Below the pieces are notes generated by a model. The model did no database searches and was not told where the DNA came from. It saw nothing but the letters and a program-made list of their open reading frames with translations. Positions 1,567-48,989 of a DNA stretch of 64,000 nt are shown here, piece by piece. Each line of letters starts with the position of its first letter. Within the stretch, counting starts at the first letter, position 1. The position numbers and the translations under genes are program-made. This stretch comes from a bacterium HR40. Lineage in GTDB: Bacteria > Pseudomonadota > Alphaproteobacteria > Geminicoccales > Geminicoccaceae. The DNA is taken from the NCBI GenBank assembly GCA_002898275.1, contig BEIQ01000001.1, positions 675,899-739,898 on the forward strand. Direction: 5' to 3'.

Positions 1567-2637
1567 TCAATTCCCGAGCGGCCGGAGCCAAGTCACGTGA
1601 CCCATCTTGCGGCCTGGCCGGACTTCGCGCTTGCCGTAGAGGTGGAGCCGCGCGTCGGGCGCATCGAGGAACGTCGGCCAATCGTCGACTTCCCCGCCGA
1701 TCAGATTGACCATGGTGGCATCGAAGAAACGGCGCACCGAACCGAGGGGCAGGCCGCAGATGGCGCGCACGAGCTGTTCGAACTGGCTCGTGGCGCAGGC
1801 ATCGAGGGTCCAGTGACCGGAATTATGGGGCCGCGGCGCGAGTTCGTTGACGAGCACTCGGCCGTCGCGGGTGACGAACATCTCGACCGCGAGCAGGCCC
1901 TCGACGGCCAGCGCCTCGGCGAGCCGCTCCGCGATCTCGCTCGCCCGCGCCGCCGTGCCCACCGGAAGTTCGGCGGGGACCACGGTGCGGTGCAGAATCC
2001 CGCCCCGGTGTTCGTTGCGCACCGGGGGATAGGACAGCCGTCGGCCATCCGGGGTGCGGGCGACGATGACGGAGATCTCGCAGCTGTAATCGACGAAGGC
2101 CTCGGCGAGGGCCGGCACACCGCCGAGGGCGGAAAAGGCAGCGGCTGCCTGCTCCTTCGTCTCGATGCGCCACTGCCCTTTCCCGTCGTAGCCGAAGCGC
2201 CGGGTCTTGAGCAGGAAGGGCAAACCGAGCGCTCGCGCTGCCTCCTCGGCATCGGCGGGGGTATCGACCGCCAGGAAATCGGTGACCCCGATGCCGAGGC
2301 GGCGAACGAGCTCCTTTTCGGCCAGCCTGTCCTGGGTGGTGGCGAGGACCTCGGCCGAGGGACGGGTCGGCACGAAGCCGGAGAGAAAGGCCACGGCCTC
2401 GCGCGGAACGTTTTCGAACTCGAGGGTGACGACATCGACGCTGCGCGCAAAGCGCGCGAGAGCCGAGCGATCGTCGTAGGCAGCACGCGTCCAGGCCGCT
2501 GCCACTTCGGCCGCTGGGCATTCCTCTTCCGGGGCGAAGATGTGGCAGCGATAGCCGAGCCGCGCCGCGGCAAGGGCCGTCATGCGACCGAGCTGGCCGC
2601 CACCGAGAATGCCGATCGTCGATCCAGGAGGCAGCAT
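1567..2637 (-). CDS. purK: N5-carboxyaminoimidazole ribonucleotide synthase
   Basis: PurK is the ATP-grasp enzyme that makes N5-CAIR from AIR, bicarbonate and ATP in de novo purine synthesis. The protein (356 residues) opens with GILGGGQLGRM and contains LLKTRRFGYDGKGQW, EISVIVAR and the terminal NELAPRPHNSGHWT motif, all characteristic of the family. The start at ATG 2637 is chosen because it lies one base after the purE stop and gives the family-standard N terminus; a longer open frame upstream overlaps purE in a non-conserved way. It is the last gene of csrA-purE-purK. Confidence 0.97.
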   Translation of the reverse strand: MLPPGSTIGILGGGQLGRMTALAAARLGYRCHIFAPEEECPAAEVAAAWTRAAYDDRSALARFARSVDVVTLEFENVPREAVAFLSGFVPTRPSAEVLATTQDRLAEKELVRRLGIGVTDFLAVDTPADAEEAARALGLPFLLKTRRFGYDGKGQWRIETKEQAAAAFSALGGVPALAEAFVDYSCEISVIVARTPDGRRLSYPPVRNEHRGGILHRTVVPAELPVGTAARASEIAERLAEALAVEGLLAVEMFVTRDGRVLVNELAPRPHNSGHWTLDACATSQFEQLVRAICGLPLGSVRRFFDATMVNLIGGEVDDWPTFLDAPDARLHLYGKREVRPGRKMGHVTWLRPLGN

Positions 2638-2638
2638 C

Positions 2639-3148
2639 TCAGCTCGCCGTCGCTCCGGATGGCTCGAAAGGGACGGAATCGCTCTGTCGGCGGCGCCATT
2701 CCTGGTAGCGCCGTGCCAGTACCGGATCGTCGAGGGCGAGCACCGCAACGGCGAGAAGGGCGGCATTGACGGCGCCGCTGCGGCCGATCGCCAATGTCCC
2801 GACCGGCACCCCGGCCGGCATCTGCACGATCGACAGCAGGCTGTCGAGTCCTTTGAGGCTGTGACTTTCGACCGGAACACCCAAAACCGGGAGCTCCGTC
2901 ATGGAAGCGATCATGCCGGGCAGATGCGCCGCTCCGCCGGCACCGGCGATGATCACCCGAAGACCGCTCTCGCGCGCTCCTTTGGCGAAGGCCCAGAGCC
3001 GGTCCGGCGTGCGGTGGGCCGACACCACCCGTACGGTGTGCGGCACGCCGAGTTCGGCGAGCACTGCGGCCGCGTGGCGCATCGTCTCCCAGTCGGAGAC
3101 GCTGCCCATGACCACCGCGACCCGCGGTCGCTCCTCAGTCTCCGCCAT
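2639..3148 (-). CDS. purE: N5-carboxyaminoimidazole ribonucleotide mutase
   Basis: This class I PurE (169 residues) converts N5-CAIR to CAIR, the step after PurK. Signature segments are [11 protein letters not shown] (phosphate loop), [10 protein letters not shown] (catalytic His) and [12 protein letters not shown]. The family-typical [19 protein letters not shown] follows. Length is normal for bacterial class I PurE. Its start lies inside the end of csrA (14-bp overlap) and its stop is one base before purK, so the three genes are probably translationally coupled. Confidence 0.97.
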
Positions 3149-3395
3149 CCACGTCCTCCTGGGGCTCCGGGGTTCTCTCGGTCGCGGAAGTCACCACGTC
3201 GAGGCCGCGCGCCGCTGCCGCCGCTGCCGCGTTCTCCGCTGCGATCCGCCGGAACACTTCCTCGCGCAGCACGCTCGCGCTCGCCGGGAAGCGGAAGCCG
3301 AGCCGGACCGCCCGGCCGCGGACCTCGATCACGCGCACCTCGATCTCGTTGTTGACGATCACCGCTTCGCCGGGGCGCCGGGTAAGATAGAGCAT
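3135..3395 (-). CDS. csrA: Carbon storage regulator CsrA
   Basis: This 86-residue protein begins [20 protein letters not shown] and contains [22 protein letters not shown], matching CsrA/RsmA, the homodimeric post-transcriptional regulator that binds GGA motifs in mRNA leaders. The RNA-contacting Arg of the usual HREE motif is kept (LREE here), with His replaced by Leu. The C-terminal tail beyond about residue 55 is alanine-rich and acidic, longer than in the 61-residue E. coli protein. A GAGGAG ribosome-binding site precedes the ATG. It is divergent from the flagellar operon and overlaps purE, an unusual partner. Confidence 0.92.
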
Positions 3396-3439
3396 GCGGC
3401 CACTCCTCAGCTCGCAGACGCCATGATACCGGCGATCCC

Positions 3440-3455
3440 TTAAGCTTCTGTTAAC
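3440..3455. promoter_or_regulatory. CtrA-binding box (TTAA-N7-TTAAC)
   Basis: TTAA (3440-3443), seven bases, then TTAAC (3451-3455) is an exact match to the full CtrA response-regulator site. It lies in the csrA/flgB divergent region, 67 bp before the flgB start. CtrA activates early flagellar genes in Caulobacter and motility genes in many alphaproteobacteria, so control of flgBC-fliE-fliQR-flhB, and perhaps of csrA, is likely. Occupancy is inferred. Confidence 0.75.
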
Positions 3456-3459
3456 TGTC

Positions 3460-3475
3460 GGGCGTTAGAGTTGCA
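3460..3475 (+). promoter_or_regulatory. Sigma-54-like -24/-12 promoter before flgB
   Basis: GGGC (GG at 3461-3462) and TTGCA (GC at 3473-3474) are spaced exactly as the sigma-54 -24/-12 elements, with ten bases between GG and GC. The -12 half is perfect and the -24 half is partial. The predicted start is near 3486, 36 bp before flgB. It sits just downstream of the CtrA box. This is moderate support only. Confidence 0.45.
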
Positions 3476-3521
3476 ACCGGAAGCCGGGGGACGCCCGGAG
3501 CCGACTACCGGAAAGTGCACG

Positions 3522-3929
3522 ATGACGGAATCCGCTCTTTTCGCCTTGATCGCGGCCCGCCAACGCTGGCTCGGTGCGCGCTTGACGCTGCTCGCCCAGA
3601 ATGTGGCGAACGCCGACACACCGGGCTATCGGCCGAAGGATTTGCCGGCTTCGAGTTTCCCGGACTTGCTGCGCGAAATGCGCGCCGCGACGGCTGCCGA
3701 AGAGCTGCGGCGGACCCATCCTGCTCACCTCGACGCCGGGGCGGGGAGCGCTCCACCGTTGCGTCCCCGGACGCGGGAGTCACCGGAAATCGCGCCTTCC
3801 GGCAACGCGGTGATTCTCGCCGAGGAACTGCGCCGGGTCGGCGAGACCCAGCGCAATTACGAACTCGATGTCAACCTTGCAGGCAAGTACCGGCGATTCC
3901 ACCGGTTGACGTTAGGCATCGGCAGCTGA
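3522..3929 (+). CDS. flgB: Flagellar basal-body rod protein FlgB
   Basis: FlgB (135 residues) is a proximal rod subunit exported by the flagellar type III apparatus. The N-terminal helix carries the rod signature LLAQNVANADTPGYRPKDL (about 24-42), and the C terminus has the second rod helix, ending NYELDVNLAGKYRRFHRLTLGIGS. The start at ATG 3522 leaves the short N terminus expected for FlgB; the in-frame extension upstream would run into the promoter elements. It is the first gene of the operon, with flgC 38 bp downstream. Confidence 0.96.
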   Translation: MTESALFALIAARQRWLGARLTLLAQNVANADTPGYRPKDLPASSFPDLLREMRAATAAEELRRTHPAHLDAGAGSAPPLRPRTRESPEIAPSGNAVILAEELRRVGETQRNYELDVNLAGKYRRFHRLTLGIGS

Positions 3930-3967
3930 ACCGGCGTCTTTGCGGTGCTCGCGCAAAGGAGCGCAAC

Positions 3968-4375
3968 ATGAATCTCGAGAACACTCTCGCCGTGGCTTCT
4001 GCCGGGATGACCGCCCAGGCCATCCGGTTGCGCGTCGTGGCAGAGAATTTGGCCAATGCGGAATCGACGGGCGATCAGCCGGGTGCCGAGCCCTATCGGC
4101 GCAAGCTCGTGATCTTCCGAAACGAGCTCGATCGCGCTCTCGGCGTCGAACGGGTCGAGGTCGCCCGCTACGCGACCGATCCTTCGCCCTTCGAGCTGCG
4201 CTACGAGCCAGGCCACCCGGCCGCCAACGACAAGGGTTATGTCGCTTATCCGAACGTCGAGCCGCTCGTCGAGCTCGTCGACATGCGCGAGGCTCAGCGC
4301 AGCTACGAGGCCAATCTCGGGGTGAGCACGGTCGCGCGCGATCTCTTGCAGCGGACGATCGATCTGTTGCGCTGA
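3968..4375 (+). CDS. flgC: Flagellar basal-body rod protein FlgC
   Basis: FlgC (135 residues) is the second proximal rod subunit. The rod-family N-terminal motif appears as RVVAENLANAES (about 26-37). The C-terminal VEPLVELVDMREAQRSYEANL is the classic FlgC/FlgG terminal helix. GYVAYPNV, just before it, is typical of FlgC. An AAGGAG ribosome-binding site precedes the ATG. It is followed 12 bp later by fliE. Confidence 0.96.
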   Translation: MNLENTLAVASAGMTAQAIRLRVVAENLANAESTGDQPGAEPYRRKLVIFRNELDRALGVERVEVARYATDPSPFELRYEPGHPAANDKGYVAYPNVEPLVELVDMREAQRSYEANLGVSTVARDLLQRTIDLLR

Positions 4376-4387
4376 GGAGCATGAGGG

Positions 4388-4687
4388 ATGACCGAGACGC
4401 TTCGGGCCATCGGGACCGCCGCGGGTACGCCCGCGACGAACCCGACAGCATTGCAGGAACGGACCCATGCCACCCGCTTCGAGGAATTCCTGGCGCGGGA
4501 GCTCGCCCATTCCCTCGACACCTTGTATCGCGGCGAGGAGGTGGCGAAGCGGGGCGTCGCCGGTCTCGCGAGCGTGCAAGAGGTGGTGGAAGCGGTGACC
4601 GCAGCCGAACTCGCGCTCGACCGCATCGTGGCGGTGCGCGATCGGGTCATCCAGGCCTATCAGGAAATCATGCGCATGCCGATCTGA
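4388..4687 (+). CDS. fliE: Flagellar hook-basal body complex protein FliE
   Basis: This 99-residue protein ends AVRDRVIQAYQEIMRMPI, the diagnostic C-terminal helix of FliE, which joins the MS ring to the rod. The middle part (FEEFLARELAHSLDTLYRGEEVAKRGVAGLASVQEVVEAVTAAELAL in short segments) also fits the family. A GAGGAG site overlaps the end of flgC. In compact alphaproteobacterial operons fliQ follows directly, but here 585 bp intervene. Confidence 0.95.
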   Translation: MTETLRAIGTAAGTPATNPTALQERTHATRFEEFLARELAHSLDTLYRGEEVAKRGVAGLASVQEVVEAVTAAELALDRIVAVRDRVIQAYQEIMRMPI

Positions 4688-33409: not shown

Positions 33410-34924
33410 ATGCTGAAGCTCTTGCTGTTCCTCTTGTTGGCTGCCGTCCTCGCGCACGGGGCGAGCTGGCTCGCGGATCATCCAGGCCTCGTCGTCGTCG
33501 AATGGTTGAACTGGCGGATCGAGACCAGCGTCGGCATCCTCGTAGCCGCGAGCCTCCTACTCGTAGCGCTGGCGATTCTGCTGTTCGAGATGCTCCGTTG
33601 GCTCGTCGGATGGCCACGCCGGATGCGCGAGCGGCGCCAGGTCGACCGTGTGCTGCGGGGCTATCGGGCGCTCACCCACGGACTCGTAGCGGCAGCGGCC
33701 GGAGATCCCGCGGCAGCCCGGCTGTTCGCCAAACAGGCGACGCGGCTGCTCGCCGGGCACGAGCCGGGTCTGCATCTGCTCGCCGCCCAGCGCGCCCAGC
33801 TCGAGGGCGAAGAGGAGACGGCGCTGCGCGAGTTCCGCGCCATGCTCCGGGAACCGGAGACCGAGCTCTTGGGTCTGCGCGGCCTTCTGGCCTATGCCGT
33901 CAAAGCCGGCAATCTCGAGGAAGCGCTCGATCTCGCCCGCCGAGCTTATCGACGCAATCCCACCACTCCTTGGGTGCTCGTGACCTTCTTTGATTTGCTG
34001 ACACGCCAGGGGGCGTGGCAGGAAGCGCTGGGCGTGCTCAACCAGCTCGCCGACCTGAGGCTGGTCGATGCCGCAGCAGCTCGTCGCCGCCGCGCGATTC
34101 TCCACGCGATGATGGCGGAAGAGGCGGAGCGCGCCAACCGGGTGGCGGAGGCGGCGACTCTCCTCCGGCGTGCCTTCAAGCTCGCACCCGACTTCGCTCC
34201 GGTGGCCGTGCGCTACGCCCGGCTCGCCGCGGCGACGAACCGGTCGCGGCTCGCTCGCCGCGTGCTCGAGCGGAGCTGGAAGAGGGAGCCGCATCCGGAC
34301 GTCGCCCGCGCCTATATGGAGCTATGGCCGGCTCGCTCGCCGCTCGAGCGGGTGCGAGCGGCCTCTCGCCTGCGCACCCTCAAGCCCTTCGATCCGCTCG
34401 CCTATGTGGTGCTGGCCGAGACGGAAATGATGGCGGGTGCGTGGGATGCCGCCCGCCACGCGTTGCAGCGCGCCGAGCAGCTGCAGCCGACGGCGCGCGT
34501 GTTCCGCGTGCGTGCGGAACTCGAACGGCTGGCCGGGGCTCCCCGCGAGGTGGTCGAGAGCTGGCTCCAGAAGGCCCTCGAGGCGCCTGCCGATCGGGCG
34601 TGGGTGTGCGAGGATACCGGCGAGGTCGTGGCCGAGTGGCAGCCGTTCGGCGTGAGCGGCCGCTTCGACGCGGTGCAATGGACGGTGCCACCCAAGGTCG
34701 CCCGGCTCGCTCCGGGCGAGACGCCGGCGAGCTTCGTCGTCCACGTGCCGGGTCCCGCCAGTCGCGAGATCGTCCCGGTGAGGGAGGCGGCTCCGCCCGC
34801 CGCTGACGGCGCGGCGGTGCCAGCGAGCAAACGCGACGACCATCGGGCAGCGCCACAGGCCAGCTCGAGCGAATCCGAGAGCGACGAAGAACGAATCGCC
34901 CGACTCGCGCGTTCTGCCGCGTGA
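33410..34924 (+). CDS. hemY: HemY-type TPR membrane protein
   Basis: This is the heme-operon HemY (504 residues), not protoporphyrinogen oxidase. Two membrane helices lie at about 3-20 and 40-62. GLVVVEWLNWRIETSVG between them is typical. The remainder is a tetratricopeptide-like helical solenoid (AVKAGNLEEALDLARRAYRRNP, ATLLRRAFKLAPDFAPVAVRYARL) and a terminal WVCEDTGEVVAEWQPF motif that could bind metal. Its exact role in heme synthesis is unknown. It follows mic60 by 14 bp. Confidence 0.92.
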   Translation: MLKLLLFLLLAAVLAHGASWLADHPGLVVVEWLNWRIETSVGILVAASLLLVALAILLFEMLRWLVGWPRRMRERRQVDRVLRGYRALTHGLVAAAAGDPAAARLFAKQATRLLAGHEPGLHLLAAQRAQLEGEEETALREFRAMLREPETELLGLRGLLAYAVKAGNLEEALDLARRAYRRNPTTPWVLVTFFDLLTRQGAWQEALGVLNQLADLRLVDAAAARRRRAILHAMMAEEAERANRVAEAATLLRRAFKLAPDFAPVAVRYARLAAATNRSRLARRVLERSWKREPHPDVARAYMELWPARSPLERVRAASRLRTLKPFDPLAYVVLAETEMMAGAWDAARHALQRAEQLQPTARVFRVRAELERLAGAPREVVESWLQKALEAPADRAWVCEDTGEVVAEWQPFGVSGRFDAVQWTVPPKVARLAPGETPASFVVHVPGPASREIVPVREAAPPAADGAAVPASKRDDHRAAPQASSSESESDEERIARLARSAA

Positions 34925-35039
34925 ATCCGCCGCCACGGTAGCTCGGTTGCGAGCGCGCGGCCGACGTGCCAGTATGGCGTCGCCGTGGCAGGAGGCCGGG
35001 TTCGACATCAACTCGGCCGACATCGCCGGGAGCGGGACC

Positions 35040-35942
35040 ATGGCCATCGCCGGGCTTGGGACCCCGGTTACCCGTGGCGGGCGAGGAGTGTCAGGTTGGT
35101 CGCGGCGTCATCTCCTTGCCGCGGCTGGCTCGATGCTCGCCGCAGGTCCTCCGGTGGGGGCAGAGCGACCGTTGCGATTCGGGTTGACCCCGGTTTTCGT
35201 CGACGACGATGAAGCGCTGCTCGCGGCTTTCAGTCGCTATCTCGGCGAAGCGACCGGCTTGCCGGTGGAATTCGTCAAACGCCGCAGCTACCAGGAAATC
35301 ACCGTCCTGCTGCTGGCCGGTCGTCTCGACGTCGCTTGGATCTGCGGTTATCCCTACGTCCAGTTCCGGGATCGGTTGGCACTCGTAGCGGTCCCGCTGT
35401 GGCAGGGATCGCCGCTCTACCGCTCCTACGTCGTCGTCGGCGCCGAAAGCCCGGCGCGGACCTTCGAGGATCTGCGTGGCACCATCCACGCTTTTTCCGA
35501 CCCTGACAGCAATTCGGGCTACCTGGTGACGGCATCGCTGCTGCGGCGGCGCGGCGAGGATCCGGGCCGATTTTTTCGCCACGTGTTCTTCACTTACGGA
35601 CACCGCAACGTGATTCGCGCGGTCGGACGGGGACTCGCCGATGGCGGCAGTGTCGACGGCTATGTCTTCGAGGTCCTGCGGCGGATCGACCCGTCCCTCG
35701 TCGATGCCTGTCGGGTCCTCAGACGATCCGAGCTGTTCGGTTTTCCCCCCGTAGCCTGCCGAGTCGAGGCGGAGAAGGACGAGGTGGTGGTGGCGCTTCG
35801 CGACGCGCTGCTCGCCATGCCCTCGCACCCGACCGGTCGCTTCGTCCTCGAGCTCCTCGGTCTCGACGGCTTCACCGTGAGCGGCCCGGAGCTCTTCGAC
35901 GGGATCGCGGCCAACGCCCGTCTGTTGGCGCGGGCGGCATGA
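35040..35942 (+). CDS. aioX: Periplasmic arsenite-binding protein AioX (PhnD family)
   Basis: This 300-residue protein has a twin-arginine-like signal (WSRRHLLAAAGSMLAAG) and a PhnD-type periplasmic binding fold (LRFGLTPVFVDDDEALLAAF, AFSDPDSNSGYLV). The stretch DVAWICGYPYVQF carries a Cys at position 102, in the region where AioX of Agrobacterium has the Cys needed for arsenite sensing. ATG 35040 is preferred since GGGAGCGGG precedes it. Its stop overlaps aioS (ATGA). Context with aioS, aioR, aioB and aioA makes AioX the best call; by itself it could be a phosphonate-type binding protein. Confidence 0.88.
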   Translation: MAIAGLGTPVTRGGRGVSGWSRRHLLAAAGSMLAAGPPVGAERPLRFGLTPVFVDDDEALLAAFSRYLGEATGLPVEFVKRRSYQEITVLLLAGRLDVAWICGYPYVQFRDRLALVAVPLWQGSPLYRSYVVVGAESPARTFEDLRGTIHAFSDPDSNSGYLVTASLLRRRGEDPGRFFRHVFFTYGHRNVIRAVGRGLADGGSVDGYVFEVLRRIDPSLVDACRVLRRSELFGFPPVACRVEAEKDEVVVALRDALLAMPSHPTGRFVLELLGLDGFTVSGPELFDGIAANARLLARAA

Positions 35943-37378
35943 GCTCGCTCCTGCGTCCGCGCCACTGGCCGCTGTCGCTCCGAGTGCCCCTTCTGGTCGC
36001 GGCCTGCATGATCGCCGTTGGCACGATCGCCTCTTGGTTGGTGCTGGCGGTGCTCGCCCGCACCCAGGAAGCCCATCTCCGCCAGCTCGCGCGCACCGCG
36101 CTCACCAGTCTCGGGGCGAGTCTGACCCCGTTCGTGGAGCGGCGGGACGTATGGGAGACTTTCGATGCCCTCGACCGGTTCGTCAGCCGCCGCGAAGGGC
36201 TGCCTGCGACCTTCGCGGCAGTCGTGCTGACCGACGGCACGGTGCTCGCGGCCTCCGATCCACGGCGCTTTCCGACCCTCGAGCCGGTACCCGCCGATTG
36301 GCGGCAGTTGTGGAGCGGCGAGGCGGACCTCCAGCTCGCCGATGCGGCACCGGCCGCCCTCGCCCGGCACCGGCTCAGCATCGACGGCGTACCCATCGCC
36401 GAGGTGTTTGCGGAGATCGATATCTCGGGACTGCTCCTCGAGCGCCAGCAAGTGTTCTGGGCGCTCCTGCTGAGCAACGCCCTCCTCACCCTGTTGCTGG
36501 CGGCCGGCGGTTATGTCCTCGTCCGGCGCATGCTGAGCCCCGTGCCCCAGCTCGCGCAAGCGGTCGAGCAACTGCGGCGCGGCGGCAAGATCGAGATCCC
36601 GGCCGATCTCGACCGGCAAGCGCCGGAGTTCCGCACCCTGTTCTTGCGCTTTCGGGCGATGGCGGAGGCCGTCGAGGAGAGACAGACGCTGCTCGCCCGG
36701 CTGATCGAGGAGGAGCGGCTTGCCCAGCTGGGCCGCCTGGCCTCGGCGATGGCCCACGAGGTGAACAATCCGCTCGCGGGTCTGCTCACCGTGGTGGACA
36801 CGCTCAAACGGCGTGGCGAGGACGGAGCGGTGCGCGAGAGCGCACTCGAGCTGCTCGAACGGGGATTGCTCGGGATGCGCAACGTCGTGCGCGCCATGCT
36901 GGTGGCGTACAAAGAAGAGGACACGGGCATACCCCTCACGGCGCGCGCCCTCGACGATCTTGCCGTGCTCACCCGGCACGAGGTCCAGCGTCGACGTTTG
37001 CAGCTGGAATGGTCCAATGGCCTGCGGGCGGCCTACGAGATCGACAGCGGTGCCCTGCGCCAGGCCCTGCTCAATCTGTTGCTCAATGCGTGTCGGGCGG
37101 CACCCATCGGTGGGCGCGTGGTGTTCGAAGCCGAGGAGCGACCGGAAGGCCTGGGCTTTGTCGTCGAGGACAACGGGCCCGGTCTGCCGGAGCCCTTCCG
37201 CCAGCTGCTCGAGTGCCCCGATAGCGCCGCGCCACCCACCAGTCGCGGGCTCGGTATCTGGACCGTGGCCCGGCTGCTGCGTAGACTGGGCGCGAGAGCG
37301 GAAGTGACGATCGGGGCCGAGGGAGGAACGCGGATCTCCATCCGATGCCCAGCGAGGCAGTGGCGGAGCGTCGCATGA
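35939..37378 (+). CDS. aioS: Sensor histidine kinase AioS
   Basis: AioS (479 residues) has two membrane helices (about 14-40 and 172-196) bounding a periplasmic domain, then a linker, the dimerisation/phosphoacceptor site His273 in ASAMAHEVNNPLAG and a HATPase domain with LLNLLLNACRAA, VEDNGPGLPE and SRGLGIWTVARLL. It would be tuned by AioX in the periplasm and phosphorylate AioR. It overlaps aioX (ATGA) and aioR (ATGA), implying translational coupling. Confidence 0.92.
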   Translation: MSSLLRPRHWPLSLRVPLLVAACMIAVGTIASWLVLAVLARTQEAHLRQLARTALTSLGASLTPFVERRDVWETFDALDRFVSRREGLPATFAAVVLTDGTVLAASDPRRFPTLEPVPADWRQLWSGEADLQLADAAPAALARHRLSIDGVPIAEVFAEIDISGLLLERQQVFWALLLSNALLTLLLAAGGYVLVRRMLSPVPQLAQAVEQLRRGGKIEIPADLDRQAPEFRTLFLRFRAMAEAVEERQTLLARLIEEERLAQLGRLASAMAHEVNNPLAGLLTVVDTLKRRGEDGAVRESALELLERGLLGMRNVVRAMLVAYKEEDTGIPLTARALDDLAVLTRHEVQRRRLQLEWSNGLRAAYEIDSGALRQALLNLLLNACRAAPIGGRVVFEAEERPEGLGFVVEDNGPGLPEPFRQLLECPDSAAPPTSRGLGIWTVARLLRRLGARAEVTIGAEGGTRISIRCPARQWRSVA

Positions 37379-38730
37379 TCCTCGAGGGCGTTCGCACCAT
37401 CGCCGTGGTCGAAGACGACCCGCTGCTCGGGCCGTCGTTGGTCCAGCGCTTTGCCGTCGAGGGGATCGCGGCCCAGTGGTGGCGCAGCGGGGAGGAGGCA
37501 TTGGCCGGCTTCGGTCGGCATCGGCCGGCCGTCGTGGTGTGCGACATCCGACTGCCCGACCTCGATGGCGAGACGCTGTTCGCGCGCAGTGCCCAGCTGC
37601 TCGGCGGCGTACCCTTTCTGTTCATCACCGGTTACGGCGATATCGAGCAAGCGGTACGACTGGTGCGCGCGGGAGCAGTCGATTACATCGCCAAACCCTT
37701 CGCGGTCGACGAACTCATCGAGAAAGTGCGCTCGCTGCTCGCCAGCGAACTGGCGGCGGGCGAGGGGGTCCTCGGTGCGAGTCCGCAAATGCGCCGCATC
37801 GAGGCGTTGCTGCGGCGCATCGCGGCGATCGACAGCCATGTGCTGCTGCTTGGTGAGAGCGGAGCCGGCAAGGAGGTCTGTGCCCGCTTCCTGCACGCCC
37901 GCTCACCGCGCGCCAGCGGGCCCTTCGTGGCGGTGAACTGCGCCGCCATCCCAGGCGAACTCGTCGAGAGCGAGCTGTTCGGGCACGAGCGTGGCGCCTT
38001 CACCGGTGCGCTCGGGCGCCACATCGGTCACGTGGAGCGGGCGGCGGGTGGAATCCTCTTCCTGGACGAAGTCGGCGACCTGCCGCTCGCGGCCCAAGCC
38101 AAGCTCTTGCGGCTCGTTCAAGAGCGGAGCTTCATGCGAGTCGGGGGCGAACGCCCGCTGCCCTTTACCGCGCGGCTGGTATGCGCCACGAACCGCGATC
38201 TGGAAGCGGAAGTGCGGGCTGGACGTTTCCGCGCGGACCTCTACTACCGCATCAACGTGATCCCCATCACCGTACCGCCCCTGCGCGAGCGTCACGAGGA
38301 TATCCTGCCCCTCATCACCCATTACCTGAGGGAGTTCGCCGACCGCTTCGAGAGCCCCGTGCGCGGCCTCACCACTGCCGCCGAGGAAGCGGCCGTCGCC
38401 TGGCACTGGCCGGGCAATGTGCGGGAACTGGTGAACCGGGTGGAGCGCGCCGTGGCCCTTGCGACCTCGACGCGCCTCGGGGTCGAGGATCTGTTCCCCG
38501 AGCGAGCGACCTGGCACCGCGACGCCGAGGGCGCGTCGGAACCCGTGACCTTGAGCGCGGCTCGTGACGCGGCCGAGCGACGACACATTCGGCGGGTGCT
38601 CGTGCGGACCGGCGGCAGGGTGGGAGAAGCCGCTCGCATCCTCGGTGTGTCGCGCACCACCCTGTGGGAAAAGATGCGGCGGCTCGGCATCGCCGACGAC
38701 CGCGCCCTGCGCGACGATCCCGCCAGCTGA
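37375..38730 (+). CDS. aioR: Sigma-54-dependent response regulator AioR
   Basis: AioR (451 residues) has a receiver domain with phosphoacceptor Asp57 (VVVCDIRLPDLDG), a AAA+ domain with Walker A GESGAGKE (160-167) and the sigma-54 contact loop GAFTGA (207-212), and a Fis-type DNA-binding helix at the C terminus (GEAARILGVSRTTLWEKMRRLGI). It starts at the ATG overlapping the aioS stop. The -24/-12 promoter of aioBA lies about 100 bp after its stop, its expected target. Confidence 0.94.
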   Translation: MILEGVRTIAVVEDDPLLGPSLVQRFAVEGIAAQWWRSGEEALAGFGRHRPAVVVCDIRLPDLDGETLFARSAQLLGGVPFLFITGYGDIEQAVRLVRAGAVDYIAKPFAVDELIEKVRSLLASELAAGEGVLGASPQMRRIEALLRRIAAIDSHVLLLGESGAGKEVCARFLHARSPRASGPFVAVNCAAIPGELVESELFGHERGAFTGALGRHIGHVERAAGGILFLDEVGDLPLAAQAKLLRLVQERSFMRVGGERPLPFTARLVCATNRDLEAEVRAGRFRADLYYRINVIPITVPPLRERHEDILPLITHYLREFADRFESPVRGLTTAAEEAAVAWHWPGNVRELVNRVERAVALATSTRLGVEDLFPERATWHRDAEGASEPVTLSAARDAAERRHIRRVLVRTGGRVGEAARILGVSRTTLWEKMRRLGIADDRALRDDPAS

Positions 38731-38731
38731 C

Positions 38732-38747
38732 GTTCGGAAATCCGGAC
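38732..38747. promoter_or_regulatory. Palindrome, candidate AioR upstream activator site
   Basis: GTTCGGA-AA-TCCGGAC has 7-bp arms matching at 6 positions. It sits about 85 bp upstream of the -24 element of the aioB promoter, a usual distance for enhancer sites of sigma-54 activators, and just after the aioR stop. Assignment to AioR is inferred from position. Confidence 0.4.
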
Positions 38748-38831
38748 AGCCCGATGGGCGGCCGTTCGCTCGGCCGGACAACGCCGGCAGAGCCGCTGGC
38801 CGACGGTGCCCCGGAGGCTGTCTTCTCGCCT

Positions 38832-38847
38832 TGGCACGCCTCTTGCG
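38832..38847 (+). promoter_or_regulatory. Sigma-54 promoter of aioBA
   Basis: TGGCACG-CCTC-TTGCG matches the sigma-54 consensus at essentially every conserved position, with GG (38833-38834) and GC (38845-38846) ten bases apart. Transcription should start near 38858, 25 bp before aioB. The gene just upstream encodes the matching activator AioR. Confidence 0.88.
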
Positions 38848-38882
38848 GGAGGTCGTGGCGCCAGCCAAGGGAGGTTTCCGGC

Positions 38883-39404
38883 GTGAAACGTTGCAAGCTC
38901 ATGGTGGAAGTCGGTCGCCGGCAGTTTCTGCGCGGCACGGCAGCGACCGCGGCGGGTGCCGCTGCGGTCGCGGTGGCAGGCGAGGCGAAGGCGGCACGCG
39001 CCGGGGCGGTGATCGCCTATCCCGGGAAGAAACTCGCCAATATCAAGGACCTCAAGGTCGATGTCCCGTTGGAGGTCACTTATCCGGACGAGGACGCTCC
39101 CGGCGTTCTGCTCAAAATGGGCCGTCCCGTGATGGGCGGCGTGGGACCCGATGGCGACATCGTCGGCTTCTCGACGATCTGTCCACACAAGGGCTTCCCG
39201 CTCCATTACGTAGCGGCCGACCGGACCTTCAACTGCCCAGGCCACTATTCGCGCTTCGACGCCGAGAAGGGCGGACTGCAGATTTGGGGCCAAGCAACCA
39301 TGAACCTGCCGCAGTACCAGCTGCGCGTGGACGCAAAGGGCGACATCTACGCCGAAGGCATCGACGAGCTGCTCTACGGCCGGCTCTCCAACGTGCTCGG
39401 CTGA
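38883..39404 (+). CDS. aioB: Arsenite oxidase small subunit, Rieske [2Fe-2S] protein AioB
   Basis: AioB (173 residues) has a twin-arginine signal (GRRQFLRGTAATAAGAAAVAVAG) and a Rieske domain with cluster ligands Cys100 and His102 (CPHKGF) and Cys118 and His121 (CPGHYS). The cysteines that form a disulfide next to the cluster in many Rieske proteins are Phe105 and Gly120 here, as reported for Rhizobium NT-26 AioB. It passes electrons from AioA to a c-type cytochrome or azurin in the periplasm. The GTG start follows GGGAGG at 8 bp. Confidence 0.96.
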   Translation: MKRCKLMVEVGRRQFLRGTAATAAGAAAVAVAGEAKAARAGAVIAYPGKKLANIKDLKVDVPLEVTYPDEDAPGVLLKMGRPVMGGVGPDGDIVGFSTICPHKGFPLHYVAADRTFNCPGHYSRFDAEKGGLQIWGQATMNLPQYQLRVDAKGDIYAEGIDELLYGRLSNVLG

Positions 39405-39419: not shown

Positions 39420-41963
39420 ATGGCGTTCAAGCGCAATGTCGACCGCCTGCCGATCATTCCGCCGGATGCGAAAGAGCATGTGGCGATGTGCCACTTCTGC
39501 ATCGTGGGATGCGGCTACAAGGTCTACACTTGGGATGCGAACCGCGAGGGCGGTACGGCGCCTTCCGAGAACATCTTCGGCGTGGACCTGTCCAAGCAAC
39601 AGCCAGCCGAAACACCGGCCTGGTACGCGCCGTCGATGTATAACATCGTAAAGCAGAATGGCCGCGACGTCCACATCGTGATCAAGCCCGATCCCGAGTG
39701 CGTCGTCAACAAGGGCCTTGGCTCCATTCGCGGTGCGCGACTGGGAGAGATCGCCTATTCCCAGATCACCGGTAGCCAGACCCATCGTCTCACCACACCC
39801 ATGGTTTGGCGTTACGGTCAAATGCAGCCGACGAGTTGGGACGATGCTCTCGATCTCGTGGCGCGGGTGACGGTGGCGGTGATCAAGCAATATGGCGAGG
39901 ACGGGCTCTTCGTCTCGGCCTTCGACCACGGCGGGGCGGGCGGCGGTTACGAGAACACCTGGGGCACGGGCAAGCTCTATTTCGGGGCGATGAAGATCCG
40001 CAATATCCGCATTCACAATCGCCCGGCCTACAATTCCGAGGTGCACGCCAGCCGCGACATGGGCGTCGGCGAGCTCAACAATGCGTACGAGGATGCGGAG
40101 CTCGCGGATACGATCGTGGCTATCGGGACCAATGCCCTCGAGACCCAGACCAATTATTTTCTCGCGCACTGGGTCCCGAACCTGCGCGGCGACACCGTCG
40201 AGAAGAAAAAGAAACTCTTGCCCGACGAGCCACACGAGCCCGGCCGCATCGTCATCGTCGATCCGCGCCGCACGGTGACGGTCAACGCCTGCGAGGTCGA
40301 AGCTGGCAAGGACCGGGTGCTCCACCTCGCGATCAATTCGGGCACGGATCTCGCGCTGTTCAACGCCTGGCTGACCTACATCGCCGACAAGGGTTGGATC
40401 GACCGCGAGTTCATCGAGAAGTACACGGTCGGCTTCGAAACACCGCCTGGCGAAGCGCCGATGTTCCCGGCCCGCCCCGGCGGCAGCCTCGATCAACCGC
40501 GTTGGCCAGGCTTCAATGAAATGCTCGCTGCCAACCGGATGTCGGTGGAAGAGGCGGCCAAGATCTGTGGCGTTCCGGCCGAGCTCATCGTCGAGGCAGC
40601 GCACTGGATCGCCGAGCCCAAGCAGGGCAAACGTCGGCGGACGATGTTCGGCTACGAAAAAGGCATCATTTGGGGCAACGACAATTACCGCACCATCGGT
40701 GCCCTGGTGAACCTCGCCCTCGCCACTGGCAACATCGGCCGCGAAGGTGGAGGCTGTGTGCGACTCGGCGGTCACCAGGAGGGCTACGTCCGCCCCTCCG
40801 ACGCCCATGTCGGCCGCCCAGCCCCCTACGTCGACCAGCTCCTGATCTCGGGCAAGGGTGGCGTCCACCACATCTGGGGCTGTGACCATTACAAGACCAC
40901 CCTCAACGCGCAGGAGTTCAAGCGCGTCTACAAGCGGCGCACCGACATGGTGAAGGACGCCATGAACAGTGTGCCATGGGGCGACCGCGAGGCTCTGGTC
41001 GATGCCATCTTGACGGCGATCCGCATGGGCGGGCTGTTCGCGGTCGACGTCGACATCGTCCCGACGAAGATCGGACAGCATTGCCACGTGTGGTTGCCGG
41101 CCGCTACCCAGGGCGAGATGAACCTCACCTCGATGAACGGCGAGCGCCGGATGCGGATCACGCAGCGCTACATGGATCCGCCGGGGGAGGCGATGCCCGA
41201 CTGTCTCATCGCGGCCCGCCTCGCCAACCACATGGAGCGCGTGCTCCGGGAGCTCGGCGATCATGCCTATGCCGACCGTTTCAAGGGCTTCGACTGGAAG
41301 ACCGAAGAAGACGCCTTCATGGACGGCTATCACCAGCACGCTCCGGGGGGCCAATATGTCACCTACGAGCGGCTGGTCGCCATGGGCACCAACGGCTTTC
41401 AGGAGCCCGCCCGCGGCGTGGACGAGAAGGGTCGCATCATCGGCACGCCTCGGCTCTATACCGATGGCCGCTTTTCCACCCCGGACGGCAAAGCTCGCTT
41501 CATGATCGCCCCATGGCGTGGGCTGCAGGCGCCGGGCAAGGAGGAGCAGAAGAAGAACTTCCGCTTCCTGATCAACAATGGCCGCACCAATCACGTCTGG
41601 CAGTCGGCTTACTACGACGAGAACGATGCCTTCATCCAGGACCGCTGGCCCTATCCGTTCATCGAGATGAATCCCAACGACATGAAGGAATTGGGGCTGG
41701 AGGAAGGAGACTTGGTCGAAGTCTGGAACGATGCGGGTGCGACCCAAGCAATGGTCTACCCCAACCCGGCGATGAAGCGCAACGAGACGTTCATGCTCTT
41801 CGCCTATCCCAAAGGGGTGCAGGGCAACGTCGTGAACGCCGGTGTCAACGAGCTCGTCATTCCCAACTATAAGCAGACATGGGCCAATATCCGCAAGCTC
41901 GCTCCGCGACCCCAGAACGTCGCCCATTTGTCATTCAAATCCCAGGAATATCGCTCGGCCTGA
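39420..41963 (+). CDS. aioA: Arsenite oxidase large subunit, molybdopterin AioA
   Basis: AioA (847 residues) oxidises arsenite to arsenate with a molybdenum bis-pyranopterin and a 3Fe-4S cluster. The cluster ligands are Cys24, Cys27 and Cys31 (CHFCIVGC), and Ser102 occupies the fourth-cysteine position, as in known AioA. The HASRDMGVGEL segment (about 209-219) and the Arg/His pair in RLGGHQEGYVRP lie where arsenite-contacting residues sit in the family. It has no signal of its own, so it should be co-exported with AioB through the Tat system. The length is close to the NT-26 enzyme. It starts 15 bp after aioB. Confidence 0.98.
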   Translation: MAFKRNVDRLPIIPPDAKEHVAMCHFCIVGCGYKVYTWDANREGGTAPSENIFGVDLSKQQPAETPAWYAPSMYNIVKQNGRDVHIVIKPDPECVVNKGLGSIRGARLGEIAYSQITGSQTHRLTTPMVWRYGQMQPTSWDDALDLVARVTVAVIKQYGEDGLFVSAFDHGGAGGGYENTWGTGKLYFGAMKIRNIRIHNRPAYNSEVHASRDMGVGELNNAYEDAELADTIVAIGTNALETQTNYFLAHWVPNLRGDTVEKKKKLLPDEPHEPGRIVIVDPRRTVTVNACEVEAGKDRVLHLAINSGTDLALFNAWLTYIADKGWIDREFIEKYTVGFETPPGEAPMFPARPGGSLDQPRWPGFNEMLAANRMSVEEAAKICGVPAELIVEAAHWIAEPKQGKRRRTMFGYEKGIIWGNDNYRTIGALVNLALATGNIGREGGGCVRLGGHQEGYVRPSDAHVGRPAPYVDQLLISGKGGVHHIWGCDHYKTTLNAQEFKRVYKRRTDMVKDAMNSVPWGDREALVDAILTAIRMGGLFAVDVDIVPTKIGQHCHVWLPAATQGEMNLTSMNGERRMRITQRYMDPPGEAMPDCLIAARLANHMERVLRELGDHAYADRFKGFDWKTEEDAFMDGYHQHAPGGQYVTYERLVAMGTNGFQEPARGVDEKGRIIGTPRLYTDGRFSTPDGKARFMIAPWRGLQAPGKEEQKKNFRFLINNGRTNHVWQSAYYDENDAFIQDRWPYPFIEMNPNDMKELGLEEGDLVEVWNDAGATQAMVYPNPAMKRNETFMLFAYPKGVQGNVVNAGVNELVIPNYKQTWANIRKLAPRPQNVAHLSFKSQEYRSA

Positions 41964-48622: not shown

Positions 48623-48689
48623 GCGCAGAGGTTGACCGAACCCCCTGCCACACTTACGCTTTCGTCCCAGCATGGGCAGGGGGACGGCG

Positions 48690-48989
48690 ATGACCGGACG
48701 CACGGTGACGCGAGCCCAGCTCGCCGAGGCCATCTATCAGGAAGTGGGGCTCTCGCGGAGCGAGTCGGCGGAGCTGGTCGATCGCATCCTCGAGGAGATG
48801 TCGCGGTCACTGGTCGAGGAAGGGATCGTCAAGATCTCCAGCTTTGGCACTTTCGTCGTGCGCGAGAAGGGCCGACGGGTGGGGCGCAATCCCAAGACCG
48901 GCGAGGAGGTCCCGATCGAACCGCGGCGGGTGCTGGTGTTCCGGCCCTCGCAGGGGCTGCGCGAGCGTCTGGACGGTGAGCGGCAGTGA
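48690..48989 (+). CDS. ihfA: Integration host factor subunit alpha
   Basis: IHF-alpha (99 residues) is a DNA-bending protein. [42 protein letters not shown], and [23 protein letters not shown] are diagnostic, the last containing the beta-arm with the intercalating Pro. IHF often assists sigma-54 promoters, two candidates of which lie in this window. An ATG at 48672 is an alternative start. The stop overlaps merR (GTGA). Confidence 0.96.

Follow-up and report, generated by a model that had tools for sequence, protein, structure and literature searches.

The region between aioR and aioB in the window (the whole stretch of 64,000 nt that we analyzed) very probably acts as an arsenite-inducible, AioR-activated sigma-54 promoter of aioBA. 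We observed two tandem palindromes upstream of a -24/-12 element in this region and, across 68 loci, the distance between the proximal palindrome and the promoter falls on a ladder of values about one helical turn apart. This suggests that AioR control sites need to occupy the same helix face as the start site on which they act.

The genes aioXSR and aioBA are located on the same strand, and only 152 nt separate the aioR stop (38730) from the aioB GTG (38883). The gene aioX (34947-35942, plus strand; the TTG start is the choice of the ORF caller) encodes a predicted periplasmic arsenite-binding sensor of the phosphonate-binding-protein type (PF12974, E = 9.8e-52), 57% identical over 256 aa to an AioX-like match about 3 kb upstream of aioB in genome G058. 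It is followed by aioS (35939-37378, plus strand), a sensor histidine kinase with HisKA and HATPase_c domains that was named from its position between aioX and aioR, and by aioR (37345-38730, plus strand), a sigma-54 activator with a receiver (PF00072), an AAA+ domain (PF00158) and a Fis-type HTH (PF02954). GAFTGA is present in the AioR translation, which therefore combines the hallmarks of a bacterial enhancer-binding protein, and the protein is 80% identical to the aioR product adjoining aioBA in locus L031. The names aioX, aioS and aioR rest on gene order, domains and homology, and no NCBIfam model listed for the three proteins reached its cut-off. Downstream, aioB (38883-39404, plus strand) encodes the small Rieske subunit (TIGR02694, 199 bits; cut-off 95.65), in which we read by eye the twin-arginine-like signal GRRQFLRG, and aioA (39420-41963, plus strand) encodes the large molybdopterin subunit (TIGR02693, 1284 bits; cut-off 359). 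Both curated cut-offs are exceeded, which identifies an arsenite oxidase of the aio rather than the arx type. No plus-strand terminator was found 3' of aioA. The genome contains a single rpoN (one strong Sigma54_DBD match, 207 bits) and five strong sigma-54 activators including AioR.

The aioR-aioB intergenic region reads, in order: palindrome, palindrome, spacer, sigma-54 element, GGAGG and GTG. The predicted promoter (TGGCACGCCTCTTGCG; 38832-38847, plus strand), TGGCACG-CCTC-TTGCG, agrees with the sigma-54 consensus TGGCACGN4TTGCW at 11 of 12 positions and presents both the GG (38833-38834) and the GC (38845-38846). An earlier sequence-only reading had described a near-perfect sigma-54 promoter between a sigma-54 activator gene, aioR, and aioB. 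Its sequence and coordinates were re-read and confirmed, the element is the only one in 64 kb with at most one mismatch to the consensus, and domain and family models support both gene names. However, the motif alone does not exceed chance and its position is what counts: shuffled windows contained 0.39 such sites on average (36 of 100 with at least one), seven sites were found against 8.2 expected when two mismatches were allowed, and exact TGGCACGN4TTGC occurs at three places in the 2.89-Mb genome, this site being one of them. Judging from the spacing to the -12 element, transcription of aioB would start near 38858, some 25 nt upstream of the GTG; the ribosome-binding site GGAGG (38870-38874, plus strand) lies 8 nt upstream of the GTG.

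The predicted distal AioR box (GTTCGGAAATCCGGAC; 38732-38747, no strand assigned) begins one base past the aioR stop, and its arms GTTCGGA/TCCGGAC extend over 7 bp with one mismatched pair. The sequence-only reading had reported a single palindrome about 85 bp upstream of the promoter: this palindrome is real and lies 84 bp from the -24 motif, but a second one had been missed. This predicted proximal box (GTTCGCTCGGCCGGAC; 38764-38779, no strand assigned) starts 32 bp after the distal box, or about three helical turns, and ends 52 bp from the -24 motif. Taken singly, palindromes with up to one mismatch are no more frequent in the window than expected (18 versus 21.5), and the only two perfect ones are both found in the aioR-aioB intergenic region. 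With up to three mismatches, the window contains a single tandem pair with the 16-bp gap, compared to a mean of 0.13 in shuffled windows, of which 11 of 100 contained one or more. The exact pair, with boxes 10-22 bp apart, occurs once in the 2.89-Mb genome, where no further tandem-pair target was found, and is absent from a control with the pattern written backwards; the genome-wide count of single palindromes was 35, against 20 for the backwards control. The tandem pair is much stronger evidence than the sigma-54 motif. Relative to the published consensus GTTN10AAC, both boxes read GTTN10GAC and are one base off; among the 68 loci, G occupies this position in 24 of the proximal boxes and in 22 of the distal ones. 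The core of the proximal box also deviates from the usual GAWWTC.

We further analyzed the conservation of this arrangement using 80 AioA relatives (of 453 confirmed) together with the window; one locus without upstream DNA (L104) was left out, giving 80 of 81 regions. Pairs were defined as boxes GTYCGN6CGRAC matching at least 16 of 20 positions and 28-34 bp apart. A pair was found in 44 of the 46 regions in which aioR lies no more than 900 bp upstream, in all 11 regions with aioR more distant in the locus, and in 8 of the 23 regions without aioR in the examined locus. The boxes thus track aioR (55/57 regions with the gene versus 8/23 without it). A properly placed sigma-54 element accompanies the pair in 43, 10 and 7 of these regions, respectively. 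The sequence-only reading had staked its prediction on conservation of the palindrome in relatives, and both palindrome and promoter are kept. When spacings of 16-60 bp were allowed, 62 of the 65 pairs scoring at least 18 had their boxes 29-33 bp apart (33 bp in 33 of them). Single-locus pair scores are not extreme relative to shuffles (30 per locus; largest shuffle score 15-19), and it is therefore the constant spacing and position that bear weight. As a positive control, scanning the NT-26 plasmid NT26_p1 recovered exactly its published aioBA promoter TGGCACAACGATTGCA (PMC6011840) and two boxes.

Several loci depart from this pattern. In L100 and L106, aioR adjoins aioB, yet neither a pair nor a recognizable sigma-54 promoter was found. 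Two other loci (L093 and L099) present a pair together with an element that resembles the promoter, located at 80 and 79 bp, but with a score of only 8, and L101 presents a pair without promoter. In L107 and L108, we observed altered tandem boxes, GTCCAG-N4-CTGGAC, about 149-179 nt upstream of aioB, which suggests that the DNA specificity of AioR may have shifted in Pseudoroseomonas. A draw of 398 genomes of the phylum yielded 11 bearing aioB: the pair is absent from the four most distant of them (L152-L155), and two others (L150 and L151) contain pairs only at spacings of 39 and 51 bp.

Within the family of the window, three genomes (G014, G015 and G001) retain boxes and promoter despite aioXSR being in fragments, split in three frames or not found, and assembly error is possible in these cases. 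In L183 (G014:C6:54500-58000), an aioX fragment (residues 75-126) abuts a C-terminal aioR fragment (401-449) at positions 1956-2231; these precede aioB (2495), and both AioR boxes and the sigma-54 promoter are retained. This locus appears to be a promoter orphaned by internal loss of aioXSR. In L184 (G015:C109:48000-54000), aioR is spread over three successive frames (3183-4482) and the aioB promoter retains both boxes; no close aioX was found in this genome, and the split may reflect either decay or assembly error. We also examined 15 of 22 AioR-like plasmid records. On Pseudoroseomonas and Skermanella plasmids (L158, L159 and L160), we observed regulators that share 50-54% identity with AioR and are accompanied by distant AioS-like kinases. 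Instead of aioBA, their neighbor is either a PTS IIA/cation antiporter gene or a gene for methyl-accepting chemotaxis, and the stretches examined contain no tandem boxes at 9/10. An Aminobacter plasmid (L162) contains an aioR match in two pieces without annotated gene (2501-3758), probably a remnant, and no aioB in the stretch examined. Tandem boxes at 9/10 were also absent from the stretches examined of six betaproteobacterial records (L163-L167 and L170); since only that of L167 includes an aioB upstream region, this has little bearing on betaproteobacterial aioBA.

The distances between proximal box and promoter were then compared across loci. Out of 90 upstream regions, 18 without a pair and four with a pair but a promoter score below 9 (of 12) were removed, leaving 68. 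Repeats of included loci, judged by identical boxes and distances, were excluded (L002-L004, L007 and L145-L149), and L006, L008, L011, L012 and L152-L155 are not part of this set. The pair search demanded a box spacing of 28-34 bp and the promoter was picked without regard to phase. Measured from start to start, the distances are 58 (1 locus), 67-70 (16), 76-82 (46), 89-90 (2), 100 (2) and 110 bp (1), with no other value; an alternative choice of box in L079 gives 91 instead of 110 bp. The line 79.4 + 10.55n bp fits all 68 loci, with residuals that have an SD of 1.0 and reach 3.4 at most. At a period of 10.5 bp, the Rayleigh R of the ladder is 0.84, whereas two control distances both give 0.06: that from the promoter to the aioB start, measured in 68 loci, and that from the aioR stop to the distal box, measured in 49. 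A FastTree tree built from joined AioB and AioA requires a minimum of 11 changes of distance class. Ten sister contrasts, picked by hand from this tree, show a mean deviation from whole turns of 1.0 bp, and one of the ten is off by 3.5 bp (P = 1.6e-4 against a uniform null; P = 0.007 if the period is free from 8 to 14). The window occupies the 68-bp rung, as do, among its nearest relatives, L031, L032, L033, L010 and L005; another near relative, L034, is one turn closer (58). Activators of sigma-54 depend on the face of the helix. If boxes are allowed only at whole-turn distances, evolution would gain or lose spacer DNA in whole turns.

Part of the spacers also contain IHF-like sequences. The consensus of IHF is WATCARNNNNTTR, and 17 of the 68 spacers contain a match of at least 8/9 (compared to 2.7 on average, and never more than 7, in 200 rounds of shuffling); some of these loci are related (e.g., the Ancylobacter group), so that the independent cases are fewer than the count. 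Fourteen matches are on the minus strand: the start of 12 of them lies 22-23 or 32-33 bp downstream of the proximal box, and the end of 13 lies 18, 27-28 or 38-39 bp upstream of the promoter. The window spacer (38780-38831, no strand; 52 bp, 73% G+C) contains no recognizable IHF site (best match 4-5/9), and the window promoter thus lacks the site between boxes and promoter that defines an IHF-assisted sigma-54 promoter. A short unbent spacer would be expected to require strict phase. A correlation between short spacers and lack of IHF was examined and is too weak to claim. The genome contains three HU/IHF-family genes, one of them within the window (48672-48989; PF00216 match, genome C1:724603-724869), though the aioB promoter has no IHF site. 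Taking the spacing and the hinge together, we lean toward the view that boxes are allowed at about 58, 68, 80, 90, 100 and 110 bp from the -24 element and not between, that an IHF-like hinge has a fixed position in some of the loci, and that the lineage of the window is hinge-free with a GC-rich spacer one turn shorter. Searches of the literature on aioBA spacing, helical phase and IHF returned no report of the ladder or the hinge; an earlier report is possible, and the ladder is new as far as these searches show.

We propose that AioX would bind arsenite, after which AioS would phosphorylate AioR. Dimers of AioR-P would occupy both palindromes, about three turns apart, and build the AAA+ ring. 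The short spacer would form an in-phase loop that brings the ring, on a fixed face of the helix, to the closed complex of the sigma-54 polymerase at 38832-38847; the ring would open this complex, and transcription of aioBA would begin. In this scheme, binding, phosphorylation, start site and arsenite dependence are extrapolated from other species, and the need for helical phase is suggested by the comparison of loci. The sequence, gene context, conservation, single rpoN and matching distances are established for the window; what counts against the scheme is that the sigma-54 motif alone is near chance, that the core of the proximal box is atypical, that both boxes end in GAC and not in the published AAC, that boxes are retained in 8 of 23 loci without aioR, and the two loci L100 and L106.

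Another sigma-54 activator (NtrC-like, NtrX-like or other) might bind the palindromes, in which case aioBA would answer a different signal. The four further strong activators of the genome and the persistence of boxes in G001 and G014, two relatives in which neither AioR nor AioX was found intact, are compatible with this view, but the boxes go with aioR, the window box matches a footprinted AioR site, and the assemblies of the exceptions are possibly incomplete or the loss recent. We regard such an exchange of activator as very improbable. Even less credible is that aioBA would be mainly transcribed by read-through from aioXSR or from a sigma-70 promoter, with a minor role for the sigma-54 site. 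The common strand and the short distance between aioR and aioB would allow it, and the accessible part of a review (PMC7533571) describes phosphate and ArsR as inputs in other species. However, boxes and promoter hold their register across many lineages, and the same part of this review reports that disrupting the RpoN site of Agrobacterium tumefaciens 5A reduces aioBA expression.

A third concern bears on the ladder and not on the promoter: the distances could be an artefact of shared ancestry or of box selection. One class covers 46 of the 68 loci, the range of box spacing was imposed in the search, the sister contrasts were chosen by hand and include one outlier, and freeing the period weakens the P-value to 0.007. 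Against this, the choice of promoter was blind to phase, the class changes repeatedly on the tree, and the two control distances taken from the same intergenic regions present no such periodicity. We consider an artefact unlikely, and AioR-dependent activation in helical register remains our preferred reading.

These results would add a further alphaproteobacterial lineage with an AioXSR/sigma-54 switch, and they broaden the AioR box, published as GTTN10AAC, to GTYCG-N6-CGRAC, which aids the prediction of regulons. If the ladder holds, natural sequences document how a short-range bacterial enhancer depends on the face of the helix, and the spacing provides a simple test separating working from decayed aioBA promoters. 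A true register rule would mean that a phase requirement can be read from natural sequences without promoter mutants.

Tandem palindromes with a sigma-54 promoter upstream of aioB are an already published kind of arrangement, of which the window is a further example. The available part of Li et al. (2013; PMC3834237) describes, for all 12 of the operons bearing aioXSR, a -24/-12 promoter together with two tandem palindrome-like sequences located 100-200 nt upstream of aioB, and their absence from operons without aioXSR. The sequence-only reading had offered the arrangement as a prediction, which is supported but, given this earlier report, not fresh: we observed the same layout in new species. 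The text under PMC3834237 makes no mention of helical, spacing, IHF or distance, whereas here the spacing was measured over 68 loci, and some loci without detected aioR retain the boxes. The attribution of the palindrome to AioR, also predicted by that reading, gains from comparison with Agrobacterium tumefaciens GW4, for which the accessible sections of Shi et al. (2017; PMC5335332) report a DNase-I-footprinted AioR site, GTTCGGATTTCCGAAC, upstream of mcp. The distal box of the window, read on the minus strand as GTCCGGATTTCCGAAC, is identical to it at 15 of 16 positions; the target in GW4 is a chemoreceptor gene, whereas that of the window would be aioBA with two boxes. In the consulted portion of the work on NT-26 (PMC6011840), a predicted AioR site is described before aioX, whereas the 460 bp around the aioX start of the window (34601-35060) contain no AioR box at 9/10 or better. 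In Herminiimonas arsenicoxydans, the sections available of Koechler et al. (2010; PMC2848651) give the aoxAB promoter as TGGCACGCAGTTTGC, involve RpoN and AoxR, and place the mapped start 26 nt before the start codon, compared to the 25 nt predicted for aioB here. Finally, the two boxes of NT-26 are 33 bp apart, and its proximal box is located 67 bp from the promoter, compared to 68 bp in the window.
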